From: Candidatus Pacearchaeota archaeon
GTDB lineage: Archaea; Nanobdellota; Nanobdellia; Pacearchaeales; UBA284
DNA: 45,096 bases
Assembly: GCA_026395795.1 (NCBI GenBank)
Contig: JAPLYB010000042.1
Location: forward strand, 1-45,096
Direction: 5' to 3'
The translations under genes and the position numbers were made by a program. Position 1 is the stretch's first letter. Each line of letters opens with the position of its first letter. The notes below the pieces were generated by a model, which saw only the letters and a program-made list of their open reading frames with translations, was not told the origin of the DNA and made no database searches. Shown here piece after piece: positions 4,899 to 36,762 of this stretch.

Positions 4899-6341
4899 TC
4901 ATCTTACAACATGCCCTCTTCTCCATTCTAAAGGAAATGCTAATCCTCGTGCTCCACTAAAGTATATTGTTTTATCAATGTAGTTGCTGGATGAAACAAT
5001 CCCCGATTCCAAAGGTTCAAGGCAATAAACAGCAACAAGACTTGCTGCACCAATTTCATTCCATCCAACAGTAATCTTTCTGCTAATTTCTTTTGGCCAA
5101 CCATATGATGTGTCTACTCTCATTCCGGGATTTTGTTGCAAAAATGCAATACACCACTCTTTCATCCCATTAAATGCCTCTACATAACCACAATGTCTAT
5201 TCATATCAACCCTTCTTTCTAGGTTACCAATATCGTCGGTTATTGGAATAAAAAAATCCTTGATGTCAAAGGTTAGCGACCCTCTTTCTTTTGTTGTTCT
5301 TATTTTTAATGGAAATGCAACAAACGGCCTTTCATATGTCACTCCCCCCTGTGGAACATCTAAATAAAAAACATATGGTGGGTTAGTAAACTTAATCACC
5401 CAATCTCTTGGTTGTGGGGGTTCAATCCAAGTATAATACGGCCAGTATTGTCCTTGGTACTGTTGTCCATTATCAGTTTGTACTTCTGATTGGATTTTAG
5501 TTGTTTGTGAACCAACACTTAAACTTGAACTGCCAGATGAACCTGAGGAACTCGATGAACCGCTAGACGAAGAGCTGGATGAGACATTGCTACCAGGCTC
5601 TACTGGGAATGGTGTCCAATACGCGCCAGGCTTGAATTCTAGATTTGACCCTTTGTCAACAATGGTCGTAACAACCCAACCCAGACTTTGGCTTCTGTCC
5701 AAAGGATTCTCTGCAAAATACGTAAGCCAAGCGAAATTCTCCCAATGTGTGTCTGGTCCATCTATTGGTTCGCTATAGAATTGAAGTTCGAGAGAAGAAG
5801 CATTACCAGTTATGAAGAGCCCGTCTCTCTGCTTGGCGATGGGCATCACATTCGCTAGATAACGTCTCCTTGACTCAGAATTAAGGGGGAGGTCTACTCG
5901 TTTACCTCCGGCCACATTATAAACATTAGATAGAACTTGTGACAACATAGCATCACTCTGATCTGGAAAACGGTTTGCTAAATCCAATGCCTCTCTTACA
6001 CGTTGGGCGTATTTTCCAATAGCTTCGAGACAAGCACCAGGTTTTGGTGGTTGAACCTCAACCCCCCATTGTGATGCAAGCATATCAAAATTTTGATTAT
6101 TTGCAGCAATCCCCATTCTCCATAAATCTTTTTGCGGATAATACAATGCAGTTTGATCCAAGTTCTCACATTCTCCCCCATTAACAATCTGATTTAAACT
6201 GCTTTTTTTGGGAGATTGTGCAGATGGTGCAGATGAAACACACTTAGTCGTTTCAATCACAAATGCAGTAAGGACTGTAAATAAGGTTGTAGGAATAATA
6301 CTCGGTTCTATCAGGCATGATATAAGTCTAGATTTAACCAT
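4899..6341 (-). CDS. Exported or membrane-anchored protein of unknown function with a Ser linker
   Basis: A 480-aa protein with a hydrophobic N-terminal segment (about residues 8-30, PSIIPTTLFTVLTAFVIETT) that could be a signal peptide or anchor. Residues about 55-245 form one mixed domain with few cysteines. A Ser/Gly tract around residues 250-275 is a flexible linker. The C-terminal ~190 residues look beta-rich (DWVIKFTNPPYVFYLDVPQG) with a Trp/Gly-rich end. I recognise no family. It lies upstream of thrS on the same strand, separated by a hairpin element, and divergently from the 6535 gene. A surface role is inference from the N-terminus and linker. Confidence 0.7.
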   Translation of the reverse strand: MVKSRLISCLIEPSIIPTTLFTVLTAFVIETTKCVSSAPSAQSPKKSSLNQIVNGGECENLDQTALYYPQKDLWRMGIAANNQNFDMLASQWGVEVQPPKPGACLEAIGKYAQRVREALDLANRFPDQSDAMLSQVLSNVYNVAGGKRVDLPLNSESRRRYLANVMPIAKQRDGLFITGNASSLELQFYSEPIDGPDTHWENFAWLTYFAENPLDRSQSLGWVVTTIVDKGSNLEFKPGAYWTPFPVEPGSNVSSSSSSSGSSSSSGSSGSSSLSVGSQTTKIQSEVQTDNGQQYQGQYWPYYTWIEPPQPRDWVIKFTNPPYVFYLDVPQGGVTYERPFVAFPLKIRTTKERGSLTFDIKDFFIPITDDIGNLERRVDMNRHCGYVEAFNGMKEWCIAFLQQNPGMRVDTSYGWPKEISRKITVGWNEIGAASLVAVYCLEPLESGIVSSSNYIDKTIYFSGARGLAFPLEWRRGHVVR

Positions 6342-6534
6342 CTTATTTTATATTGATATTATTTTTATTTGAATAAAATCTTAAAATCTCTCCTGTTTTA
6401 CCAGCATTTTCAACTTTTTATATTTTTCTTAGATGCGCTAAATGCAGATATCACCGAATAAAAGACTCTTTCGTAAAACAATAAATTTTAAATACGAGAA
6501 AAACTGTTATGTTGAATAAAGAAAGTGTGAAAAA

Positions 6535-8916
6535 ATGAAAAAAGGGAAGAATTTTGTTTTAACAAGCATGGTTATCTTTTTCTTGTTTGTTAGTTTGCTG
6601 TTATGCACACAAAATACTCAAGCAAAAGTCGTTCTTTCAACAATGAATGAACAGTATAATCTTGGGGACGAGATAAATCAAAACATAAAGGTTATTACTT
6701 CTGACGATTTCAAGGGATTTTTGAGAGCAACGCTTGTTTGTACTTCTCAAGATTCTACTTCTGAGTCTGGTTTTTCAGGACAAGAAACATTATTATTTTA
6801 TTCTCCCATTTCTTTGGACCAAAATAAAGAAAAACAATTCTCTTTCTCATTCACAGTGTCGAACCCATCTAAATGTTATATCTCTGCAACATTGGAAAAG
6901 AATAGTAATGTAGCAGAAGAAGGAAAATCAACAACATTCTTGATAACAGACAAGGTTAATCTTGAACTGACAACTGCAAAGCAATATTTTCTCCCAGAAG
7001 ATGAATTAAAAGTTACTGGAAAAGCTACGATGGCCAATGGTAAAAGTTTTAGTGGAGCAGTCACAATCACCTTGGAAAATAAAGATTATACAACTACTGC
7101 GACAGGAGAATCATTTTCATATACAATTACTCTGGAAAAAACAATTGCTCCAGGCATGCACGTGCTTCTTGTTAAAGTTATCGACGATAAAGGCAATACC
7201 GGAGAAGCAAGCACAAACTATGAGATTGGCGTTGTAAAAACGGCGCTTGCAATTCTTGTTAATAATATGACTTTTCTTCCAGGAGACATCCTAGTTATAA
7301 CGCCCTTTCTTTTAGATCAAGCAAACAATTCTATTGAGGAAAATCTTTCTGTTAGCATCATCCAAATTTCAGACATATTGTTAGGCTTTCAACAAAAAAG
7401 GATATTATTAAATGAGATTGTCCTTTCAGGAAAATCAACTCAATATAAATTTGCAAAAGATGCCATTCCTCAAGATTATAAGATCACAGTAACCGGGGCA
7501 GGGTTTACAACAGAAACAATCGTTAGAATCTCTACTGTAGAGAAGATTATTTATCATGTAGAAGAATCTACACTTTTTGTAAAGAATATCGGTAATGTTA
7601 GATATCAAAATCCTCTTGAAATATATTTTACAATAGAGAACATAACTAACAAAAAAATAATAAATTTAGATTTAGCAATCAACGAAGAGAAATCATACCA
7701 ATTGTCTGCGCCGAAAGGGATATATGACTTATTATTCAAATCAAATGATGCAGTAGAAGAAATAAATAAAGTTCCAATTTCCGGATCAGTTATTGGGACA
7801 GTGGATCTTGAAAACAAAGAACAACAAGCAACTTTTACACCAATAATCATTCTGATCGTTCTTGTGTTCTTGGTTTCAATAGTAATACTCTTAAAGATGG
7901 GCATGTTCGGAAACATCTTCAAAAAGAAAAAGAAAAAAAGACTTCCAGAAAAAATCTTCGGCTATGAAGTTTACCATGATGAATTACAGTCCAGCTCATC
8001 AACAATGAATAAACCGACAAGCACAATGATCACAAAAACTCCGGGTTCGTCAAATAAAATTATATCAAAACCATCTAGTTCAGTTAGTTCTTTTATCTCT
8101 TTCAGTGATTCTGGTTCAGCGAGAAGTTCATCACAACAACAAACACCTCAAAAACAAGTAAAAATGTCAGACATAAGAAAGTATGAATCAAGCAAGAAAA
8201 TAGAAAGGGCAGTTAGTACGGATACAATGTTATTCTCTTCAAGTTCAGATGTAATGAGAAATGTTTTTGATAAATATGCTCAAGGTTTAGAAGCCAATAG
8301 AATTACTCCAAAAACAATTATGGGTCAAAAGAAAGAGATAAGCATCCTTATGGTCAGAGTTAGCGGAATGTCCGAATTAATGGATCTAAAAAAGAGAGAT
8401 ACTTATTTATTCGATGAATTGTCAAATTCTTACTTCTCAAAAGTAATCCAGAAGATATCTCAAGGAAGAGGTATTGCAGATTTTGCAGATGGACATTTTA
8501 TAATATTCTTTAATGCAGTAGACCAGCCAAATCACTATTCTTCTGCTCTAAGAGTTGCTCAAGAAATAAAAAAATCAACAGAAGAATTTAACCAAGAGAT
8601 AGCAGCAAAAGGTCAATCCTTCAGAATGGGGGTTGCTGCAAGTTTGCATGCTGGTCCGTTGATGGTGGCATCTATAGGGATGGATAGAACTCTAAAGTAT
8701 GCTCCTTTGGCAGATACGACCGCAATAGCAAAGTCATTAGAGAGAAAAGCATTCAAAGGAGAGATATTGATGTCAGAATCATTTTACAACAAAGTTTCTG
8801 GATCAGTTCAAGTTAAAAAGATCACTCCCTTGTCTCTAGGAAAAACAGCGATGAATGTCTACATGATTCAAGAGACAATCCAAGAAAAGAAAAAACAGCC
8901 AAGTTGGATGAAATGA
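6535..8916 (+). CDS. Membrane receptor-like protein: extracellular Ig-like domains and a degenerate class III cyclase domain
   Basis: The first ~30 residues are a signal peptide, then about 400 residues of beta-rich extracellular Ig/MG2-like domains (NLGDEINQNIKV, FLPEDELKVTGKA, FLPGDILVITP). A membrane segment at about 435-458 is followed by a KKKKKKR stop-transfer and a Ser-rich linker. Residues about 602-770 align by eye with class III nucleotidyl cyclases: ILMVRVSGMSEL for the usual FADIxGFT, FADGHFIIFF for GDAVMAVF, and MGVAASLHAGPLMVASIG for the IGIHTGEVVVGNIG strand. The first metal-binding Asp is replaced (MVRV), so the domain may be inactive or act as a regulatory fold. It may transduce an external signal, but the ligand is unknown. 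Confidence 0.75.
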   Translation: MKKGKNFVLTSMVIFFLFVSLLLCTQNTQAKVVLSTMNEQYNLGDEINQNIKVITSDDFKGFLRATLVCTSQDSTSESGFSGQETLLFYSPISLDQNKEKQFSFSFTVSNPSKCYISATLEKNSNVAEEGKSTTFLITDKVNLELTTAKQYFLPEDELKVTGKATMANGKSFSGAVTITLENKDYTTTATGESFSYTITLEKTIAPGMHVLLVKVIDDKGNTGEASTNYEIGVVKTALAILVNNMTFLPGDILVITPFLLDQANNSIEENLSVSIIQISDILLGFQQKRILLNEIVLSGKSTQYKFAKDAIPQDYKITVTGAGFTTETIVRISTVEKIIYHVEESTLFVKNIGNVRYQNPLEIYFTIENITNKKIINLDLAINEEKSYQLSAPKGIYDLLFKSNDAVEEINKVPISGSVIGTVDLENKEQQATFTPIIILIVLVFLVSIVILLKMGMFGNIFKKKKKKRLPEKIFGYEVYHDELQSSSSTMNKPTSTMITKTPGSSNKIISKPSSSVSSFISFSDSGSARSSSQQQTPQKQVKMSDIRKYESSKKIERAVSTDTMLFSSSSDVMRNVFDKYAQGLEANRITPKTIMGQKKEISILMVRVSGMSELMDLKKRDTYLFDELSNSYFSKVIQKISQGRGIADFADGHFIIFFNAVDQPNHYSSALRVAQEIKKSTEEFNQEIAAKGQSFRMGVAASLHAGPLMVASIGMDRTLKYAPLADTTAIAKSLERKAFKGEILMSESFYNKVSGSVQVKKITPLSLGKTAMNVYMIQETIQEKKKQPSWMK

Positions 8917-16619: not shown

Positions 16620-16757
16620 GATTATTTAAACAAAATTAATTTAAAAACCTGCTTATTTGTAAATAAATTTCTGTTAAACGATTATTCAGTAAATCTCTGT
16701 TGTTTTATACACACAGGATAAGTAAAAAATAACATTATTAAGTATCATTTAGCAAAC

Positions 16758-16766
16758 TTTATAAAG
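16758..16766 (+). promoter_or_regulatory. TATA box of the giant surface protein gene
   Basis: TTTATAAAG centred 26 bases before the ATG at 16788; supports that start and a leaderless transcript. Confidence 0.6.
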
Positions 16767-16787
16767 TAATTTACACACATAGTAAGT

Positions 16788-19700
16788 ATGAGATTTTGGG
16801 GTAGGGAGAAAGAGCTCCCATTTAGACCACTAACTAATGTAAGTTTTTCTAGTGAAAACAAACTTTCTGACCCTTCTAATAAGAATAATTTTGACAAAAA
16901 CAGTTCAGGTTTACAGTTCAAAAAACTTCCAGAAATTAAAAATGAATTTGAATTTTTAAATAAACTTAAAAAAGAAATTTTTAATCTAAAAAAACTTCCT
17001 AAAAGACAATTTGGAAAAGAAAAAAAAATTAACAGAAAATTTATCTTTTTCTTCGCCTTAGCATTAATCCTATTGGTCTCATTCTTCTTATTCAAGACAC
17101 AATTAATGAGCTTAACTGGTTTTGTTGTGAAAGACACGCAGTCTAGCATGGACCTTATTGAACAAAACATCAGCGAATCTCAAAACTATGAATGGCACCT
17201 TGAGCATTACGGTCAATTAATCAATGCAAAACTTTCTGGAAAATTGATATTATTAGGGGAGGGTTCTGTAAAAGTTTATCTTGAAGATAAACTTCTTTTA
17301 GATAGTTCTAAACTTGAAAAAAAGAAGACAGTGTTAAACACGATGTTGAATAACAAGTCTTTGATAACTGGTTTCGCTGTTGAAGAACAACAAACATCGG
17401 TTCAAGTTGAGAACGTAAACACTTCTGAAGAATTAAACCCTGAAGAAAATCTCTCTACCCCAAAAATCTCAGGTCTAGAAGAGATCCCACTTGAGGAAAA
17501 TCTAACAGAACCTTCTCCAGAAGAAAATGCAACGAATATAACTCAGGAGAATATGACTCAAGAGAACGCAACTCAGGAAAATGTTAGTGGAGGACAAGAA
17601 AACATAACACTTCCAGAAGGAAACCAAACTGAAAATATCACAGAAGAAAATATCACTGTTTATGAAATAGATTTTTCTAATATTTGCGTTGAAACCTGTG
17701 ATTTAGAAGAATTTAATTTGACAAAGGAAAAATATAATCTAAGAATTGAAATAGAAAATGCTTCTTTACTTCTTAATTCTATGAATTATGAAATAAAAGA
17801 ATTGGGGGAAAACGTAACACATCCAGAAGAAAATATAACAGAAGTGAATATCACTGAAAATTTTACAGAGCAGCTAATTCAGTACAATGCTACAATTGGC
17901 CAGCCAGTAAAATGGTCAAAAACAATTTTCGTTGAAAATGCAACTTTAGAAGAACCAAAAGAAATTAGAATAAAACTCCCCAAAGAATCCAAGAACATAA
18001 CTCTCAATAAAATAGAAAAGAAAAAAATAAAAGAAAAAAAACAAGAGAAATTTGATTTTAATGATACAGGAGAAGAAATTCTTATTAATATCCATGTTAC
18101 AGCTCAAGAATATGAAATTAGTTATGAAACACCTGCCCCCCAGATTAATGAAACTGAAATCAATCAAAAACAAAAAGAAATAAAAATCAAAGGCCCAGAT
18201 TCAGTTCACTATCAAAACGTCTTGGCATATACTAATATTAGTGAAGTTTCTGAATCTGAAAAAGGAAAAATCAAATTATATTGGCTTGTGAATGATTCTG
18301 AAATTTTAGTTGAAAACATTACTTACATTGATTCAAATAATGATTCTTTGATAGAAAGGATAGCTTGGATTGTTCCTCATCTAAGTGAGCAAGACTTCTT
18401 GCTTATAATTGAGATTACAAATGCAGAGCATCTTGATGAGAACTACACTTTTATCTCAAATGTTTATAATGAAACTTACGCTTTAGATGGAATTTGGAGC
18501 GAGCCAATCTATCACAATGAATATGTAAGAGTAACTTTCAAGGAAAATCTAACTTCATCTAATGATATAACTGTCTATGCAAGAAACAATCAAAATTCAA
18601 ATACAAAAATAGAAGTTTATTATTTTAATAGCTCTGAGAAAATAACTGAATTTCCAATTATAACTGATAAAAGATACTATAAAGCCTATCTTGCAAATAT
18701 GTCAGGAAGCCATGCGACTTTTGATTTAAAGATAAAAAATCTTGATAATGTTTCAAATGCATATCTTGAATTTGATCATATTGTTGATCCTGATACTACC
18801 CCCCCAATGGCATCTTTCGGCACAAATCCTATTGACAATTATAATGACAACGATGGCTCTGTTACATTCGACATGAAATGTTCTGATAATGTTGGAGTAA
18901 GTTTCTTGCAATTATGGGGAAATTGGTCAACACCTTGCTCTGGGAATTTGAATTGTGATGGAGTTTCAAATAAACCCGGATGCAATGCTTGTAATAAGTG
19001 TTCATTTATTTATGCAACTTGCAGTGGAACTAAAAATTGTGCAGTTTGGAATGGAAATCAAACAGGATGTCAGGGAGCACCACCAGGTTCATGCACCTGG
19101 GTTCTTCCAAATTGTATGAATCTTGCATTAACATGTGCCCAACAGATTAGTGAAGCAAATTGCGATTATATGAACGCAGCAGGATGCATTACTAATGGTC
19201 TTTGTGCTAATAATGGAGCTTGTTCAGCTATAACTGAACAAACAATGTGCTCTACTGGATGCGGGTCTGGATTTGGTTGTAGTTGGGGAAGCTGGCAAGC
19301 TAATCAAACAAATTCAAGCCCAATAAACGATACTTGGTGGAATATAACTGTTCCAGGAATTCCAAACGGTTTTTTTAAATGGGCCGTCTGGTGCAATGAC
19401 ACATCAAATAATCCTGATTGGACAGACACAAACAGGACATTTAATGTGCTTATTAGCATGAAAAATGTCACAAATTGTGTAGATATTGTTTCTCCTGGAT
19501 TTTATAATATAACACAGAATATTACTAACGGAACAGATGCAATTTGCATTGTTATTAATTCAGATAATGTAACTCTAGAGGGCAATGGTTTTTATGTTGA
19601 TGGTATCAATGGTTCAAACCGTTCTAATTCAATAGGGATTTATCTTCTAGGTACACAGAATAACGTTACTATACAAGATATTAACATAGCTAATTGGGAC

Positions 19701-22700
19701 AAGGGAGTTTATTTAGTGGGGAACTCTAATAGCATAATTCAAAATTTTAATTTCTCGGAAATTTTAAAGTACGGGGTTTATTTGTATAGTAACTCTAATA
19801 ATAATACCGTGTATCGCAACAAAATGAACGGAATAATTGAGATTGGGATTTATATTGATTCCAGCAATCTGAATAACATCTCTTTAAATAACCTCAGTAC
19901 AACAGGAGACATATCTCGTTTCGGCTTCTCTCTCTATGATTCAAACAACAACTTCATCTTCAGAAATAGATTGTCTTCTTTAAATTACTCAATGAAATTT
20001 GAGAGTTCTGTGAATAATACTGTTCAAGAAAATACTGTTGAAGACGCTATTGGGGCTGCAATAGAATTATCAAACACAAATTCATCAAGATTTATCTCAA
20101 ATAATTTAACAAATGCTTCTTCAGCAGGATTTAATTTAACAAATGCTTATTCAAATGATATTACAAGCAATTATATGCGAAATATTCTTAGTGCAGGATT
20201 TATACTAACAGGCTCTTACCTGAATAATTTAACAGGAAACGTTATTGATAATGTTACTGAATCTGGATTTTATTTATATGACTCAGATAATAATTCTGTT
20301 ACACTAAATAACATAACTGAAATGCAATCAAGTGGAATTAATCTTATTTCGGGGGATTATAATAACATAACTGGTAACAAATTTATAAATCCCGGATTAA
20401 CATCTTCTGCTACGGGAATTAACTTATTATCAAGTTTAAGAAATAGAATAGATAACAATGAAATGATTAACTTGACAGCGGGAGGAATAAAATTAAACTC
20501 TTCTGATGAAAACCAGCTCATAAATAATTCTTATAATCTTCCAATAACCGCTAGTCCAAATATCGCAATCTGGTTAATTAGCTCTTCTAATAACAATGTA
20601 ACAGATGGAATATTCTCAGGGGGAATCTATATTGCTTTTTCAGACTTAGCCTTTATTGATTTAGAGAATTCTAATTATAACAGGATAGAGAATGTTACTA
20701 TCCCAGCATCATGGAGGGGGTTATATATGGATTCGTCAAATAATAACACTTTTTCTGGATTAAAGATATGGTCTGTAAGCAAAATTATTGAGTTATTTAA
20801 TTCAACTAATACTACTCTTGTGAATTCTAATTTTAGCAGATATTCTTACTCTTCTTCATATTCTCCTTATTTTTATAAATCTGATTTTAACTCCTTGAAT
20901 AATTCGGGAACAAATCTTATGTTTAATTCCTCTGTTTCCGGGTATCTTAATGAAACTTATGTAGATTTTTATGGAAGTGATTTTGATTTTAGAGAAGATA
21001 ATGATACATACACTACTCAGGATGGAAGTTATGGATGGATTGGAAAAATATTTATGTTAAGGGTCGGTTCGACTGCTATATCTTTTAATGTAAGTTATAC
21101 CAACGAGGACTTAGTTAATTATTCAATACATAATGAATCGACTTTAATAATGCAGTATTACACGGGTGGTATCTTTGGGTGGGATAGTCTGTCTAATTCA
21201 GGTGTCAATGAAACTGAAAATTATGTTTGGAGTAACCCCAACTCAACAACATTTTCTACAGAAAAACCTATTGCCCCTTTCGGAGAAGTTGATTTAACTG
21301 CTCCAATAGCATCTTTCGGCACAAATCCTGTTGATAATTACAATGACACAGATGGATCAATTGTCTTTGATTTAAAATGCTCAGATAACATAAATGTAAG
21401 TTATATCCAACTGTGGACAAACACAACAGGGACCTGGCATGCAAATTACACAAACAGCAGCATGTCTAATTATAATAATACATGGCTGAATATAACAGTG
21501 ACTGGAATTCCCCAAGGACAAAATTACAAATGGGCTGTCTGGTGCAATGATACATCAGATAATTCTGATTGGACAGGTACTAATAGAACATTTAATGTTA
21601 AAAACACAGCACCAACAATAGATGATATTTCAACAATTCCTTTGCAAAACATAACAGAAGGCGGAGTAACAAATGTAACTTTCTTTGTCAATGTCTCAGA
21701 TGCAAATGGATACGAAACTCTTGATGTTGTGAATACAACTTTCACAAAAACAGGAGAAGGAACAAGATACAACTCAAGTTGCAAATTTGTTGCAAATTAT
21801 AATGCTACTCAAGCAAACTATTCTTGTATAATTGGCATATGGTATTGGGATGGTGCAGGAAATTGGAGTATAAACGCAACTGCAAATGATTCTGGCGAAT
21901 TAGTCTCTTCTGGTTACAATGAAACATTTGAATTATCACAAACAACCTCTTTTGCTGTTTCTCCAAATGCAATAAGTTTTTTAACAATAACGCCGGGAAC
22001 AGAAAATGTAACCTCTAATAATGACCCTTCATTATTGAATAATACAGGAAACGCAAATATTCCTCTGAATAATATCAGCATTAGAGCTCTTGATTTATAC
22101 GGAGAAGATAATCAAAGTTATTTCATAAATTCAGCTAATTTCTCTATAGACATAGAAACAGGTTCTGTTGCAGAATGTGCTGGAGATTCCCTGTCAAACA
22201 ATAGTTATGTGAATATTACGGGATCAATCTTGCCAGCTGGAAATAATTCATTAAATTATGGAAATGAAACATCAGGGCAAGAACAATTGTATTATTGCAT
22301 CAAACAAATCAGCACAACTTTAATTGCCCAAAAGTATTCAACCAATTTCCTCGGATCGTGGATAATCCAGATAATCGCGTCAATGGTTTTGATTGTGCCA
22401 GCAAGAAGAAAGAAGAAAAAGCTAGATGAAGAAAAACTATTCACAATCTTGCAATTAAGCATAAATGAGTTAAAAGAAAGATATGCACTCTCAACAGACG
22501 AGATAATCAAGATTGCAGAGAAGAAATCACAAGAAAAGACAATCCCATTGGCAATATTCCAAGAGAACTTAGGAGCTCTTGAAACAATAGTCAAATATTT
22601 AAAAGAAAATCTAAACTTATCTTATCACGAAATTGCAAGATTGTTAAACAGAGATGACCGAACAATCTGGACAACCTACCAGATAGTCATGAAAAAGAAG

Positions 22701-23399
22701 AAAGAAAAGATAGAAATAAAATCAAACAGGTTCTTAATTCCTTTATCCGTATTCTCGAATAGAAAATTGAGTATTCTCGAATCCCTAATCTCATATCTCA
22801 AAGAGAAGAACCTTTCTTTCAAAGAGATCTCTGAATTAATCAACAGAGACCAGAGAAACATATGGACAATAAACTCGAGAGCTAAGAAGAAAATAAAAGA
22901 CAAACCAGATAAGAGCGAAGAAAGACTATTCAAAATGTTAAAATTAAGTATTGGCGAGATAAAAGAAAAATATTCCTTATCCCAAGAAGAAATCATGAAG
23001 ATTGGCGAAGGAAAATCACAAGAAAAGACAGTTCCTTTATCATTATTCAAAGAGAATCTGGGGGTTTTAGAGATTCTAGTAAAATATCTAAAAGAAAATT
23101 TAGGCCTTCCTTATCATGAAATTGCAAAACTATTAAATAGAGATGACAGAACAATCTGGGCTACTTACAAAAATACTTTAAAAAAGAAAAAAGAAAAATT
23201 AGAAGTAAAACAGAGTAAGATTTCAATACCTCTTTCAATATTTGTAAACAGAAAATTAAGCATACTAGAATCTCTAATATTATATCTAAAGGAAAAAGGC
23301 TTTTCCTTCAAGGAAATTTCTAAATTAATCAATAGAGACCAAAGGAACATATGGACTATAAACTCAAGAGCCAAGGGAAAATTTAAATCTGCTCCGTAA
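16788..23399 (+). CDS. Giant membrane surface protein with beta-helix ectodomain and four cytoplasmic HTH motifs
   Basis: 2203 aa. Residues 1-83 are a charged cytoplasmic segment; 84-103 (FIFFFALALILLVSFFLF) is a membrane helix. A long Asn/Glu/Thr-rich stalk full of sequons leads to an Ig-like domain (~668-890) that holds a ~125-residue Cys-rich insertion. A NosD-type right-handed beta-helix follows (~891-1497), then a second Ig-like domain and a domain shared with the 23468 gene product. A short hydrophobic segment at ~1855-1870 followed by RRKKKK would return the chain to the cytoplasm. The last ~330 residues are two ~160-residue repeats, each with two HTH motifs (LLNRDDRTIWTTY, LINRDQRNIWTIN, LLNRDDRTIWATY, LINRDQRNIWTIN) like sigma region 4/LuxR HTHs. 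It may link surface sensing to transcription (inference). Confidence 0.75.
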   Translation: MRFWGREKELPFRPLTNVSFSSENKLSDPSNKNNFDKNSSGLQFKKLPEIKNEFEFLNKLKKEIFNLKKLPKRQFGKEKKINRKFIFFFALALILLVSFFLFKTQLMSLTGFVVKDTQSSMDLIEQNISESQNYEWHLEHYGQLINAKLSGKLILLGEGSVKVYLEDKLLLDSSKLEKKKTVLNTMLNNKSLITGFAVEEQQTSVQVENVNTSEELNPEENLSTPKISGLEEIPLEENLTEPSPEENATNITQENMTQENATQENVSGGQENITLPEGNQTENITEENITVYEIDFSNICVETCDLEEFNLTKEKYNLRIEIENASLLLNSMNYEIKELGENVTHPEENITEVNITENFTEQLIQYNATIGQPVKWSKTIFVENATLEEPKEIRIKLPKESKNITLNKIEKKKIKEKKQEKFDFNDTGEEILINIHVTAQEYEISYETPAPQINETEINQKQKEIKIKGPDSVHYQNVLAYTNISEVSESEKGKIKLYWLVNDSEILVENITYIDSNNDSLIERIAWIVPHLSEQDFLLIIEITNAEHLDENYTFISNVYNETYALDGIWSEPIYHNEYVRVTFKENLTSSNDITVYARNNQNSNTKIEVYYFNSSEKITEFPIITDKRYYKAYLANMSGSHATFDLKIKNLDNVSNAYLEFDHIVDPDTTPPMASFGTNPIDNYNDNDGSVTFDMKCSDNVGVSFLQLWGNWSTPCSGNLNCDGVSNKPGCNACNKCSFIYATCSGTKNCAVWNGNQTGCQGAPPGSCTWVLPNCMNLALTCAQQISEANCDYMNAAGCITNGLCANNGACSAITEQTMCSTGCGSGFGCSWGSWQANQTNSSPINDTWWNITVPGIPNGFFKWAVWCNDTSNNPDWTDTNRTFNVLISMKNVTNCVDIVSPGFYNITQNITNGTDAICIVINSDNVTLEGNGFYVDGINGSNRSNSIGIYLLGTQNNVTIQDINIANWDKGVYLVGNSNSIIQNFNFSEILKYGVYLYSNSNNNTVYRNKMNGIIEIGIYIDSSNLNNISLNNLSTTGDISRFGFSLYDSNNNFIFRNRLSSLNYSMKFESSVNNTVQENTVEDAIGAAIELSNTNSSRFISNNLTNASSAGFNLTNAYSNDITSNYMRNILSAGFILTGSYLNNLTGNVIDNVTESGFYLYDSDNNSVTLNNITEMQSSGINLISGDYNNITGNKFINPGLTSSATGINLLSSLRNRIDNNEMINLTAGGIKLNSSDENQLINNSYNLPITASPNIAIWLISSSNNNVTDGIFSGGIYIAFSDLAFIDLENSNYNRIENVTIPASWRGLYMDSSNNNTFSGLKIWSVSKIIELFNSTNTTLVNSNFSRYSYSSSYSPYFYKSDFNSLNNSGTNLMFNSSVSGYLNETYVDFYGSDFDFREDNDTYTTQDGSYGWIGKIFMLRVGSTAISFNVSYTNEDLVNYSIHNESTLIMQYYTGGIFGWDSLSNSGVNETENYVWSNPNSTTFSTEKPIAPFGEVDLTAPIASFGTNPVDNYNDTDGSIVFDLKCSDNINVSYIQLWTNTTGTWHANYTNSSMSNYNNTWLNITVTGIPQGQNYKWAVWCNDTSDNSDWTGTNRTFNVKNTAPTIDDISTIPLQNITEGGVTNVTFFVNVSDANGYETLDVVNTTFTKTGEGTRYNSSCKFVANYNATQANYSCIIGIWYWDGAGNWSINATANDSGELVSSGYNETFELSQTTSFAVSPNAISFLTITPGTENVTSNNDPSLLNNTGNANIPLNNISIRALDLYGEDNQSYFINSANFSIDIETGSVAECAGDSLSNNSYVNITGSILPAGNNSLNYGNETSGQEQLYYCIKQISTTLIAQKYSTNFLGSWIIQIIASMVLIVPARRKKKKLDEEKLFTILQLSINELKERYALSTDEIIKIAEKKSQEKTIPLAIFQENLGALETIVKYLKENLNLSYHEIARLLNRDDRTIWTTYQIVMKKKKEKIEIKSNRFLIPLSVFSNRKLSILESLISYLKEKNLSFKEISELINRDQRNIWTINSRAKKKIKDKPDKSEERLFKMLKLSIGEIKEKYSLSQEEIMKIGEGKSQEKTVPLSLFKENLGVLEILVKYLKENLGLPYHEIAKLLNRDDRTIWATYKNTLKKKKEKLEVKQSKISIPLSIFVNRKLSILESLILYLKEKGFSFKEISKLINRDQRNIWTINSRAKGKFKSAP
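22415..23395 (+). repeat. Tandem duplication encoding the HTH tail
   Basis: 22415-22910 and 22911-23395 encode two ~160-residue units with the same order of segments: a Leu/Ile-rich helix, SQEKT-[IV]-PL, a first HTH with NRDDRTIW, a linker, then a second HTH with NRDQRNIW. The duplication is clear at protein level and diverged at DNA level. Confidence 0.8.
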
Positions 23400-23467: not shown

Positions 23468-24397
23468 ATGAAGCACAAAATAATTTTACTGTCTTCTTCC
23501 ATCTTGATATTACTGGTAATTCTCTCGTTTAATTTAGCAATACCAACGGCATCTGCTGACAGCTTTTTGGATTGGATTACTGGAAAAGCGACAAAACTAA
23601 CAAATGTCAGCATCACAATCGCACAGATAAGAATTGATTGGGTTTCTGCGATTGCAAATCCGCAAAATGTTACAGAAAGCGGCTCAACAACCGTAGTTTT
23701 TTATTTTAATGCTTCAGTTCCTGGGGGAACTGTATCAAATATAAATAAAAGCAGTGCTGCTGGAAATTTTTCTTTAGCAGGAGAAACTACAAGACAAAAT
23801 GATAGCTGCCTAAATGTTTCAGAAGGAACAGATTGGGTTAATTTCAGCTGCAGCATAAAAGTATGGTATTGGGATGGAGCAGGAAATTGGACAGTAACTG
23901 CTTTTGTTAAAGATAACAGCAGCAACTCGGTCACAAACACCTCGACTAATATGACTTTATCACAATCAACATGTTTTGTAACTTCGCCAAATGAATTAAC
24001 TTGGGCAACAGCTATTCCAGGATCAGTAAATCAGGTATCTAATAATGATCCATCATTATTAAACAATACATGTAATGATGATGTAGATACAGATAAGGTT
24101 GACGTTAAAGCCCTAGATTTAGTTGGGGCGACTAATAATAGCTTTTCAATATTTGCAGAAGACTTCAAATCTTCAGTAACATCAGGATCGGAGTGTAGTG
24201 GAGTTGCTTTACAAAATAATACGTTTAAAGCAATAACTGGATCAATTTTACCATCTGGAAATAATTCTCTAAATTATGGAAATGGAACATCAGGGCAAGA
24301 ACAATTGTATTATTGTATACCAGCAGTCAATTCGAGTTTAATTGCACAAGCATACTCAACAACAAAATTAGGATCTTGGACGATCCAGATATCATAA
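23468..24397 (+). CDS. Secreted Ig-like protein homologous to the last ectodomain of the giant protein
   Basis: 309 aa with a signal peptide (about 1-30) and the motif ITGKATKLTNVSITIAQ at the mature N-terminus. The rest matches residues ~1605-1864 of the 16788 product segment by segment: WYWDGAGNW, SNNDPSLLNNT, ITGSILPSGNNSLNYGN, TSGQEQLYYCI and LGSWTIQI, where it stops. It lacks the membrane segment and HTH tail. Many N-x-S/T sites suggest glycosylation. It follows the giant gene by 68 bases and may share its transcript, although a weak TATA-like box (TTTAAAAAC, near 23410) precedes it. Confidence 0.75.
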   Translation: MKHKIILLSSSILILLVILSFNLAIPTASADSFLDWITGKATKLTNVSITIAQIRIDWVSAIANPQNVTESGSTTVVFYFNASVPGGTVSNINKSSAAGNFSLAGETTRQNDSCLNVSEGTDWVNFSCSIKVWYWDGAGNWTVTAFVKDNSSNSVTNTSTNMTLSQSTCFVTSPNELTWATAIPGSVNQVSNNDPSLLNNTCNDDVDTDKVDVKALDLVGATNNSFSIFAEDFKSSVTSGSECSGVALQNNTFKAITGSILPSGNNSLNYGNGTSGQEQLYYCIPAVNSSLIAQAYSTTKLGSWTIQIS

Positions 24398-32728: not shown

Positions 32729-35700
32729 TTACTCTTCTTTTGTTAACTTAATCATATCTGTGACAACATCTCCGGGCTGAATTTTAATTATTTTCACGCC
32801 CTGAGTGTTTCTTCCCATCGTTCTTATATCTTTAATGGGGACTCGTATTACCATTCCTTTTGCAGTTGTAGCAATAATGCTGTCTTCGCTTGTTACTGTT
32901 TGAATAGCCATCACATTCCCGTTTCTTTCAGAGCAATTCATATTGATTATTCCTTTGCATGCTCTGGAAGTCTTTCTATAGTCAGTTACAGGCGTTCTCT
33001 TTCCATAACCTTTCTCAGTTATAGTTAAGATTGTTAATTGTTTTCCTTCTGATTTTTCTTTTTCAACTTTTTCTAAGTCTATTTTATTAAAAACTTGTAT
33101 TCCGACAACTTCGTCATCTTTGTCTAATTTAATAGCTGTTACACCATAAGCGGCTTTTCCCATTTCCCGTACTTCTTTTACATCAAATCTCATGGCAATT
33201 CCCTTTTTAGTTGCAATAACTGCTTCTCCATTCACATCAACAAGCAATGCATCAACAATTCCATCGTCTGGTGGAAGTTTAGTTGCCATAACACCTGATT
33301 GGCCAATTCTTATGAACTCTTCAAGATTAACTCTCTTAGCAATCCCCCTTTTAGTAATTATTAAAATCGAGCCTTTTTTCTCTATAATTGGGATAACTGC
33401 CTTTATTTTATCATTTACCTGTAAAAGGTTGATAATTGCCTTGCCTTTGCTGTATCTTGTTGCTTCAGGGATATTGTAAGCCTTTAAGATATACAATCTA
33501 CCTCTTTCAGTTAAGAATAAGATTTGATCGTGTGTACTGCAAGTAAAGACATTTTGTACAAAATCCCCAGTAGTTAACTCTGTTCCTGAAATTCCCTTGC
33601 CCCCCCTGTGCTGTTCATTGTACATTCTTAATGGCATCCTTTTTATGTAGCCTTTAGATGTCATCATAACTGCAACCTCTTCTTTTTTAATTAAATCAAT
33701 CTCATTAATCTCTGGGGTTCTTTCTAATATTTTTGTTCTTCGCTCATCTCCAAATTTTCTTTTTAATTCAGAAACTTCTTTTTTAATAATTTCAAGAATT
33801 TCTTTTTCATCTGAAAGTATTTTTTCAAGTTCTTTAATTTTTTGAACAAGTTCTTTATATTCATCTTTAATTTTATCTTGTTCTAATGCAGTTAACCTTT
33901 GTAATTTCATCTCAAGAATTGCTTGAGTTTGTTTCTGGCTTAATTTATATTTATTCATCAAATTTTCAGTGGCTTCAGTAACATGTTTTGATTTTTTAAT
34001 TAAAGAAATAACCGCGTCTAAATCTTTTAATGCTATTAACAAACCTTCAAGAATATGAACTCGGTCTTTAGCTTGATTTGATTCAAATTCGGTTCTTTTT
34101 CTTACTATTTTCTGTCTATGTTGGACATAAACCCCTATTAGTTGTTTTAAATTTAAAATTCTTGGTTGATTTTTAACTAGGGCAAGTAAAATACAATTAA
34201 ACCTAGTTTCTAAATTAGTTAAACTGAAAAGTCTGTTCATTACAAGTTTCGCATTTGTTCCTCTTTTTAACAAGATTACAACTCTTACTTCTTCTTTTGC
34301 AGACTCATCTCTAATGTCTGAAATATCTGGAATTTTTTTATTTTGAACTAAGTCCGCTATGGCTTTAATAAAATCTGCTTTGTTCGTTTGATATGGAAGC
34401 TCAGTAATCACAATTTTTTCCTTGTCCCCCTTTGTTTCAACATTAGCTTTTCCTCTTAAAACAAAACCCCCTCTCCCTGTTTCATAAATTTCTTTTAAAC
34501 CTTCTTTGTATATCGTTCCATATGTTGGAAAATCAGGCCCTAAAATAAATTCTCTTAACTTGTCTATTGTGACTTCAGGATTCTTAATATAAGCAGATAT
34601 TGCGTCACAGACCTCTGAAAGATTATGTGGAGGCATACTAGTCATCATCCCTACTGCTATTCCAGAAGAACCATTAATTAAAAGATTTGGGAGTTTAGCA
34701 GGAAGAACCTCTGGTTCTTTTAAAGAGTTATCAAAATTTGGCAAGAACTTTACAGTTTCTTTATCCAAATCTTCTAGCAATTCCATAGCTATTTTTGACA
34801 GCTTGGCCTCAGTATAACGGCTTGCAGCTGGAGGATCGTTATCAATTGAGTTATGTACAAAAACTCCAGAAGAAAGGGCGAAATTATGTGTTTTATCCAC
34901 AGTTAAATCATAAACATCAACAAATTTATTTAAAAATTCGGTTTTTACAACTTTGTGGTTCATTTTATTAAGTGCTATTCCTAAAGCATTGCAGAGAGTC
35001 TCTATATTGTCATTAAAAAACTTGGTTAAACCATTTCTAAATTTTATAATTCCTGCTCCCCCCCTTGGATTATAACTTATCCTTACTTTTTCATAACTTT
35101 CTTCATCTATTTTTCCATATAACTCAATTGCCCTTTTGCATACTTTTAAAAACCGATAATAATTTGCCTTTTTACCATTTTCAGAAAGAATAGCCAAAAA
35201 ATAATTTCTAAATTCTTGGTTATCTTTCCATTTGTTTTTATATGCATTTATTATGTTGTTTTTATACTCCTTGTTTTTCCATCTTTCTTTTCCCAAATTG
35301 GAAATATACTCTCGATGTCTATCATCTGACCAAATTTTTTTAGAAATTTCTTTCATATGTTCTGCTCGTTCCTTACGATATGTAATATTATTCCACTTAA
35401 TTTTCAAAGATTCAATTTTATTCTTTCTGTAACTCTCATTCTGCCAAAGTTTTTTTAAAGTTTTAGTAGCTCTTTTACTTAATTCATCTCGTTTTTCAGG
35501 ATGTTTTTGGACGTATTCTTTGTTTACTTTACTTAAAAATTCTCTCATTTTTCTTATATAATCCTTATTTTTCCAATTAGCTAAATTTCTTTCAGTCATT
35601 CTCTTAGAATAAGCTTTTCTATTATTCTCATCTTTCCAGAATTTTCTCCTTCCTTCTTTCAGATTTTTTACATACTCTGGGTCTTTTTTATGCTTCTCAG

Positions 35701-36712
35701 AGGTAAAAGTATAATGTGTTTGCCAGTGTTCTTTCCATTGCATTCTTTTGATATTGTTGGGATTATTATTCAATTTATTAAAATTAATGTGGTGTCGTAT
35801 TCTGCCACTTGGTCTTTGATAAATTCCATTTTCTATATTCAAGTTATCTGCAAGAATGTGCGTGAATTCCCACAATTGAGATTTTGGTTGCAAAATCATC
35901 TCATAACCAACTGCATTGGCATTATCTTCCTTTGTTGAAAATCTAGAATAGCAAGGCATTAAAGACTCTCCAGCTTTCAAATCTTTCGCCTCTTTATATC
36001 CTCCATCTCTTAACATAAACTTATGATTTAGTGTACACTTTATTTCTTCTCCATTATCTAAGGTAATCTTGATTATTTCTGCATTTTCTTTTGTTTTTCT
36101 TGGATTTCTAATTTCTGCGATTTTTATTATTCCATTATCGATACTAAAAGTAAAGTTTTGTTTTCCTTGTTTATGCTCTTTTATTAATTCTTCAAAAGAA
36201 AGATTCCTCCCATCTGTCAATTTAACCTTAGTATCTGCAGTAAAACAACCAAAATTTCCTTGACCATGAACTAAAGGATATCTTAATGAAAAGTTCTGCG
36301 CCATTCTGACCATCGCGTCATAAATAGCCATATCTCCATGAGGGTGATATTTTCCCATACAGTCGCCCACGATTCTAGCTGATTTTTTTGTTGGTTTGTC
36401 TGGCTCAAGATTCAACTCATTCATGGTATGGAGGATTCTTCTATGAACTGGTTTTAATCCATCTTCTGCTGATGGAATTGCTCTAGCAACAATAACAGAC
36501 ATAGCATAGTCTATGTAAGAAGACCTCATTTCATCTTCTATTAACGCTTCTTCTACTTTTTCATCTGCTGGAATTTCAAGAGGAGCTATTTGAGATTCTT
36601 TTCCGTTAGTGCCATCCCCATTACTTTCCTTTCCATTTTCTTCAATGACTTCGTCATCTCTTTCATCGTCTTCCTCTTTAGTTGTTTCCTTTTTCTTTTT
36701 TTCTTCTGTCAT
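32729..36712 (-). CDS. gyrA: DNA gyrase subunit A, interrupted by an intein
   Basis: Breaks and rejoins DNA in the A2B2 gyrase that introduces negative supercoils. After an acidic N-terminal tail, the core [29 protein letters not shown] and [14 protein letters not shown] is typical; the catalytic Tyr is in [10 protein letters not shown]. The C-terminal domain has a GyrA box (QHRGGKG), which separates gyrase from topoisomerase IV. Splicing of 466 residues would leave about 861. I start at 36712 rather than 36736 because the eight extra residues translate a hairpin element. It lies downstream of gyrB, a Mth938-like gene and a small gene on the same strand. Confidence 0.95.
34850..36247 (-). mobile_element. 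GyrA intein with HNH endonuclease and Trp-repeat region
   Basis: 466 residues from Cys1 ([14 protein letters not shown], block A) to SGVFVHN followed by Ser (block G); block B has CTLNHKF and block F is [15 protein letters not shown]. The flanks GQGNFG and [10 protein letters not shown] join into the normal GyrA sequence. The central part is not LAGLIDADG: residues ~150-178 have [15 protein letters not shown] and EHWQTHY, an HNH homing endonuclease. Residues ~200-350 hold seven repeats of W-x-[ND/N]-x-x-[YH/F]-[RK] (W at 204, 225, 268, 285, 306, 323, 340), probably DNA-contacting helices of the NUMOD type. All splicing residues are present, so it should be active. Confidence 0.9.
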
Positions 36713-36762
36713 GCTAAAAACTCCTGTTTTTGGCACACAGAAAATCTTCTGATTTTCTAGTG
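36712..36762. repeat. Paired-hairpin element ending at the gyrA start codon
   Basis: Hairpin 1 (36712-36735): TGC-TAAAAAC-TCCT-GTTTTTG-GCA; hairpin 2 (36736-36762): CAC-AGAAAATC-TTCT-GATTTTCTA-GTG. On the gyrA strand the element ends ...TTTTTAGC directly before ATG, and the A of the ATG is the last paired base. The loop reads AGGA on that strand, a possible ribosome-binding sequence in a hairpin loop. Confidence 0.7.

Follow-up and report, generated by a model that had tools for sequence, protein, structure and literature searches.

A giant archaeal surface protein with a predicted DNA-binding tail and candidate operators for that tail in its own promoter

Introduction

Transmembrane transcription regulators (TTRs) are one-component systems of the ToxR/CadC type, of which a census is available (PMC10269533). 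In archaea, ArnR and ArnR1 control the genes of surface structures, ArnR consisting of an N-terminal helix-turn-helix (HTH) followed by two C-terminal transmembrane (TM) segments (PMC6396743). Among DPANN archaea, the giant SPEARE surface proteins are thought to contact hosts and are reported to carry a VirB4/TraG-like ATPase (PMC10266531). Here we analyze a giant surface protein that appears to bring a large ectodomain and an array of HTHs together in one polypeptide, encoded in a stretch of 45,096 nucleotides (the window) from a Candidatus Pacearchaeota archaeon (assembly GCA_026395795.1, contig JAPLYB010000042.1, positions 1 to 45,096).

An earlier reading of the window, made from its letters and open reading frames (the sequence-only reading), had placed four HTHs on a predicted cytoplasmic tail of this protein, had called the arrangement unusual, and had proposed either a one-step sensor-regulator or a nucleoid-tethering device. 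Comparison with relatives suggests that the protein is probably a membrane-anchored giant whose C-terminal tail lies in the cytoplasm, binds DNA at specific sites and autoregulates the gene that encodes it. This finding offers a concrete regulatory circuit for the host-contact proteins of DPANN archaea and delineates a family of archaeal regulators that is widespread and whose DNA code can be read; in most lineages the regulator is a separate gene overlapping the surface-protein gene, whereas one order has it incorporated into the surface protein. Our literature searches found neither a paper describing this HTH family nor any described regulation of DPANN host-contact proteins.

Results

The tail consists of duplicated double HTHs

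The HTHs of the tail carry the motifs NRDDRTIW (residues 1954 and 2117) and NRDQRNIW (residues 2019 and 2182), and, as the sequence-only reading had it, form two repeats of two HTHs each (Table 1). Family alignments and the structural model define each repeat as a double HTH (dHTH), in which two HTHs resembling sigma factor region 4, HTH-A and HTH-B, have IP-x-x-(I/V)F leaders. HTH-A and HTH-B are themselves homologous, the outcome of an internal duplication (hhalign 99.9%), and the tail matches Pfam families Sigma70_r4_2 (4.4e-11) and HTH_38 (8e-9), both beyond the curated cut-off. Single HTHs superpose on region 4 or RcsB-type HTHs (5vxn, 8jzt, 3vep, 5fgm) at 0.7-1.8 Å over about 45 residues; the whole dHTH has no match among solved structures (best TM-score by query about 0.34, none with E <0.05). 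Sigma region 2 gave no model match in the window protein, NCBIfam sigma models remaining far under cut-off, and no further tail genes were found in the window's own genome.

A shared candidate operator lies in the promoter of the giant gene

Copies of TACTTACATAATAAGTA, spotted by eye and then scored with a position weight matrix (PWM), recur upstream of the genes that encode stand-alone dHTH proteins (described below). At a PWM score of at least 10, this operator is found in 49 of 69 stand-alone dHTH promoters, as against 3 of 351 control genes; at score 11, stand-alone promoters contain 83 copies in forward and 10 in reverse orientation, and a PWM built from half of the promoters recovers the operator in 21 of the 35 in the other half. 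Fused and stand-alone forms have the operator TAC(T/A)YACATAATAAGTA in common: a PWM trained on stand-alone promoters, with zero fused genes among them, detects it in 15/19 promoters of giant fused genes and in 4/166 other genes of the same loci. The window promoter carries an operator of the TAC-N-YACATAATAAGTA type. Operator copies are spaced by 21, 31, 42, 52-53, 63 or 74 bp, corresponding to whole helical turns (phasing R=0.71, n=59 for stand-alone and R=0.61, n=18 for fused genes), the spacing in the window being 64 bp. The proximal operator of most fused genes is located at -14 to -17, abutting the ATG, with the distal one near -68, and in most fused relatives the TATA box starts near -31 (-28 to -32).

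The pattern TACANACANNNTAAGTA occurs exactly twice in the genome, a count that covers the assembled 957 kb of an assembly 87.5% complete, and both matches (16708-16724 and 16772-16788) lie in the giant gene's own promoter; a genome-wide search for the window site at up to 3 mismatches still returns those two only. Across twelve other genomes with fused tails, 22/22 operator matches fall at the starts of tail-bearing genes, as judged by comparing match positions with tail-gene coordinates (for one further tail gene, in genome G146, the start was taken from open-frame length), and a control pattern gave none.

Some lineages display variants. The promoters of the giant genes in loci L130 (upstream of 5107-8403, minus strand) and L131 contain arrays of TAACACATATTAAGT, a lineage variant of the operator, with six copies, spaced exactly 20 bp apart, in L130. 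Genus g15 (L018, L020) has ACACACACCCTAG repeats upstream of its giant genes instead of the usual operator; L018 does contain a standard one, but further upstream, before a small open reading frame at 1831.

Paired residues and bases suggest a specificity code

One residue in each HTH covaries with one base in each half of the operator, threonine with a pyrimidine and asparagine with a purine. With operators scanned by a template that ignores the positions under test, base 4 of the left half can be predicted from HTH-B residue 145 in 71/74 pooled cases, and its symmetric counterpart in the right half from HTH-A residue 80 in 64/65. In fresh or previously unused loci the code holds in 33/35 (HTH-B/left) and 31/31 (HTH-A/right) cases, and the crossed pairings (HTH-A/left, HTH-B/right) show no association (p=1). 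The window follows the code, with T1959 accompanying TAAGTA and N2024 accompanying TACA. Because HTH-A and HTH-B are homologous and the operator is pseudo-palindromic, one HTH per half-site is suggested.

The tail occurs fused in one order and as a separate protein elsewhere

A profile of the tail detects it in 156/371 genomes of a phylum sample. Of 200 genomes in the window's order, 48 have the fused form, in which the tail nearly always closes a frame with a length between about 900 and 8071 aa; it is absent from all nine other genomes examined in the window's family. The arrangement noted by the sequence-only reading is thus not a one-off, the special feature of the window protein being its doubled dHTH, which it shares with L120 (most fused relatives have a single one). 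Fused giants follow a constant design: a cytoplasmic N-terminal region, a first TM segment (TM1), a conserved N-proximal ectodomain, a variable middle, a juxtamembrane (JM) pair of domains, and the tail. The same domain order in many independent genomes rules out a frameshift or misassembly as the origin of the fusion. Residues about 301-700 of the window protein are covered in 10-18/27 fused relatives, residues 700-1550 in about one, and the JM Ig-like pair in 27/27. The middle varies freely, comprising a beta-helix in the window protein (Pfam Beta_helix 7.8e-15, NosD 2e-12) and Ig repeats in L015, and the JM pair as modelled by AlphaFold2 returns generic Ig-like matches in fold searches (e.g. 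integrin, CfaB pilin, RbmA); the Ig-like and beta-helix ectodomain of the sequence-only reading is thereby borne out. A co-directional gene for a secreted JM-domain protein is located directly downstream of 23/26 fused giants, as it is in the window.

Outside the window's order, the dHTH almost always stands alone as a protein of about 150-240 aa (typically ~180 aa). Its gene overlaps a co-directional downstream gene encoding a protein with a predicted TM or signal segment in 38/41 cases, compared with 26/301 for other genes in the same loci (Fisher p 1e-29). In the Woesearchaeota contig JACPNG010000009 this overlapping gene encodes a tail-less surface protein of 994 aa, with a JM domain and a cytoplasmic N-terminus like that of the giant family, and the two genes after it correspond to the two partner genes of the window; judged by gene content, this operon is a split version of the window's giant-protein unit. 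A search of genome contigs with a two-row tail alignment returned one locus, the split operon. The split homologues look like cytoplasmic regulators of surface-protein operons.

In four loci (L084, L087, L088, L090), stand-alone dHTH genes head arrays of secreted proteins of about 250 aa ending in YYF(Y/W)(V/I/A)EL, which are possibly filament subunits.

The tail is predicted to be cytoplasmic

TM1 is the N-terminal membrane helix of the sequence-only reading (mean hydropathy 2.67). Eight lysine or arginine (K/R) residues precede it within 20 residues, so that an N-in orientation, with residues 1-83 inside, is expected. Near the C-terminus, residues 1854-1872 form a second hydrophobic stretch (mean hydropathy 2.04) followed by a polybasic stop, both of which the sequence-only reading had reported; the segment itself, as far as modelling goes, is not a textbook membrane helix, since it is short and AlphaFold2 predicts strand and disorder there. 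Longer hydrophobic stretches occupy this position in L130 and L131. The strand containing a conserved tryptophan at this point is the last strand of tail-less paralogues too (GSWTIQIS-stop in the window's neighbour protein), and ectodomain folding and insertion into the membrane may thus vie for the residues of this strand, a competition that, we speculate, could act as the switch.

The polybasic stop, the depletion of N-glycosylation sequons, and the stand-alone homologues, in which no TM segment is predicted, together argue strongly for a cytoplasmic tail, in agreement with the sequence-only reading. Sequons, in which the ectodomain is rich, number 5.74 per 100 aa there, 0.56 in fused tails and 0.82 in stand-alone dHTHs; with no predicted TM segment in the stand-alone dHTHs and a similar composition in the fused tails, a cytoplasmic position is expected. 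An extracellular DNA binder was considered and is ruled out by sequon and K/R composition and by the cytoplasmic homologues.

Features of the locus

Coordinates are collected in Table 1. Many fused giants have an (I/L/F/T)TG(F/L)(A/V)(V/I)-like motif directly after TM1, and also within linkers (ITGNVV, ITGAVV); it is found at residues 109-114 and 193-198 of the window protein and in L015, L017, L018 and L020. The window contains another surface protein whose tail is of a signalling type: the gene at 6535-8916 (plus strand) specifies a TM segment and, on the cytoplasmic side, a domain resembling adenylate/guanylate cyclases (Pfam 6.5e-5, narrowly passing the cut-off). An intein (Pfam Intein_splicing 5e-21) interrupts the DNA gyrase subunit A encoded at 32729-36736 (minus strand).

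Table 1. Features of the giant surface-protein locus, with positions in the window.
Feature	Position	Strand	Details
Operator 1 (distal), TACACACAGGATAAGTA	16708..16724	+	matches TACANACANNNTAAGTA; score 10.3, stand-alone-trained PWM
Possible extra half-site ATTAAGTA between operators, weak	16737..16744	+	sequence only
TATA box TTTATAAAG	16758..16766	+	begins 30 nt before ATG, as for leaderless mRNA
Operator 2 (proximal), TACACACATAGTAAGTA	16772..16788	+	last base = A of start codon; 64 bp from operator 1
dHTH-tailed giant surface protein	16788..23399	+	uninterrupted ATG-to-stop frame, 2203 aa
N-terminal region, predicted cytoplasmic	16788..17036	+	residues 1-83; basic before TM1; coiled-coil-like counterpart in relatives
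TM1, predicted N-in	17037..17093	+	residues 84-102; hydropathy and K/R bias
N-proximal ectodomain, conserved	17688..18887	+	residues about 301-700
Beta-helix in variable middle, best stretch	19911..20315	+	residues 1042-1176
JM pair of Ig-like beta domains	21585..22376	+	residues about 1600-1863; AlphaFold2
Short hydrophobic segment WIIQIIASMVLIVPA, putative short second membrane pass	22359..22403	+	residues 1858-1872
Polybasic stop RRKKKK	22404..22421	+	residues 1873-1878
dHTH module 1 (HTH-A specificity residue T1959, HTH-B N2024)	22425..22901	+	AlphaFold2 pLDDT (predicted local distance difference test) 95.7
dHTH module 2 (HTH-A T2122, HTH-B N2187)	22914..23396	+	72% identical copy of module 1
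Secreted 309-aa JM-domain protein without tail, conserved next gene	23468..24397	+	JM profile E 4e-69
Small membrane protein, 183 aa	24564..25115	+	2e-21 to 203-aa protein in split operon of L014

Discussion

In the mechanism that we propose, each dHTH would act as an internally duplicated pseudo-dimer on one 17-bp pseudo-palindrome, HTH-B reading the upstream half (TAC-A) through its asparagine and HTH-A the downstream half (TAAGTA) through its threonine. The targets would be the two operators of the giant gene's own, presumably leaderless promoter: one spans the start codon and predicted start site, the other precedes the TATA box and faces the same side of the helix. Proteins that have arrived in the membrane would occupy these operators with their tails, a negative feedback that would keep expression of the giant and of its partners encoded downstream at a set level. 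Since the start region is covered by the proximal operator, repression is the probable output, which we hold with moderate confidence.

Several observations weigh against this reading. The case for repression is drawn from operator position. Four giants (L018, L020, L131, L132) have no standard operator, and L018, L130 and L131 have other repeats. Few independent changes underlie the code, about 5 and 2 on the best tree of the first data set, with one independent pair each on its well-supported branches. In most relatives only 11-16 residues separate the conserved tryptophan from the basic run, and AlphaFold2 models W-IIQI as a beta-strand and the remainder at pLDDT <50 without a helix; the shortness of the segment and the lack of a modelled helix make the second pass through the membrane, by which the tail would reach the inside, an odd one in most members.

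Whether the ectodomain governs the tail is a separate matter. Of the one-step sensor-regulator put forward in the sequence-only reading, the regulator half is strongly supported by the operator in the gene's own promoter, the code and the split homologues, while the sensing half we only infer, and coupling of the tail's activity to an extracellular signal is a weak proposition. It is conceivable, if on balance doubtful, that this adhesin-like protein is a dedicated single-target transcription factor gated by its ectodomain, through host contact, folding or assembly with JM subunits, and hence combines the roles of sensor, effector and regulator for a host-contact organelle.

A released tail is an alternative that we consider rather unlikely: an ectodomain signal would lead to cleavage near the short hydrophobic segment, in the style of Notch or regulated intramembrane proteolysis, and the freed dHTH would diffuse to the operators. 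The marginal hydrophobicity of the segment would suit such a switch, as would the soluble stand-alone dHTHs, which have the same kind of operator, and genes for an M50 site-2 protease and a rhomboid, one of each, are present in the genome. However, we found no cleavage motif or protease linkage, and both proteases are near-universal (14/14 control genomes), so that their presence says little. To about the same degree we doubt that the tail activates its own promoter instead of repressing it; the distal operator does lie upstream of the TATA box, a possible activator position, but in most fused members the proximal one overlaps both the start codon and the predicted start site of a leaderless gene, as is typical of repressors.

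Three further explanations appear highly improbable. The dHTH might be merely linked to the operator, which another factor would bind while the dHTH had a different role; this would have to accommodate a paired residue-base code in both half-sites that is upheld in fresh loci with null crossed pairings, and an operator that accompanies split and fused forms alike. The nucleoid-tethering device of the sequence-only reading, which would anchor the chromosome to the envelope, draws on the coexistence of a membrane protein and four HTHs, and is less credible still: there are two genomic target sites, both in one promoter, and most fused relatives have a single dHTH, so we regard this suggestion as unsupported. 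The least credible proposal, that the tail is extracellular or the fusion an artefact of assembly or of a frameshift joining two genes, has the weak second membrane pass in its favor and is contradicted by sequon depletion, cytoplasmic homologues, operator logic and the recurrence of the fusion across the order.

By the definition of PMC10269533, the protein is a predicted TTR, combining a DNA-binding domain and at least one predicted TM region in one polypeptide. Like the nanohaloarchaeal SPEARE giants (PMC10266531), it is a very large DPANN membrane-anchored surface protein with Ig-like domains; it has no Pfam match to a VirB4/TraG-like ATPase and bears a DNA-binding tail instead. The single HTHs of the tail resemble those of sigma-70 region 4 and of RcsB-LuxR proteins (PDB 2h27, 5vxn), and a multi-HTH CRISPR repeat-binding protein (2lvs) served as a further comparison structure, no solved structure matching the whole dHTH. 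Of the features that define the sigma-70 family, the window protein has a region 4 HTH and lacks region 2. The stand-alone dHTH operons are like the SigI-RsgI systems (PMC12203970), in which a sigma factor has a transmembrane anti-sigma factor as its partner, in pairing a sigma-region-4-like HTH protein with a neighbouring membrane protein whose ectodomain is large and variable. Unlike extracytoplasmic function (ECF) and SigI sigma factors, however, the dHTH has no sigma region 2, belongs to archaeal transcription, and would use its tandem HTHs as a pseudo-dimer; and unlike in SigI-RsgI, the HTHs of the window protein are fused to the surface protein, in which neither the RsgI cytoplasmic domain nor its self-cleaving extracytoplasmic domain has a Pfam or NCBIfam match. 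In contrast to ArnR, the HTHs are C-terminal, duplicated and sigma-region-4-like, and stand behind a giant ectodomain that appears to be anchored at both ends, and the sole genomic target found is the protein's own promoter. If this is true, a transcription factor that targets only the promoter of the giant membrane protein carrying it would amount to a protein that counts itself.

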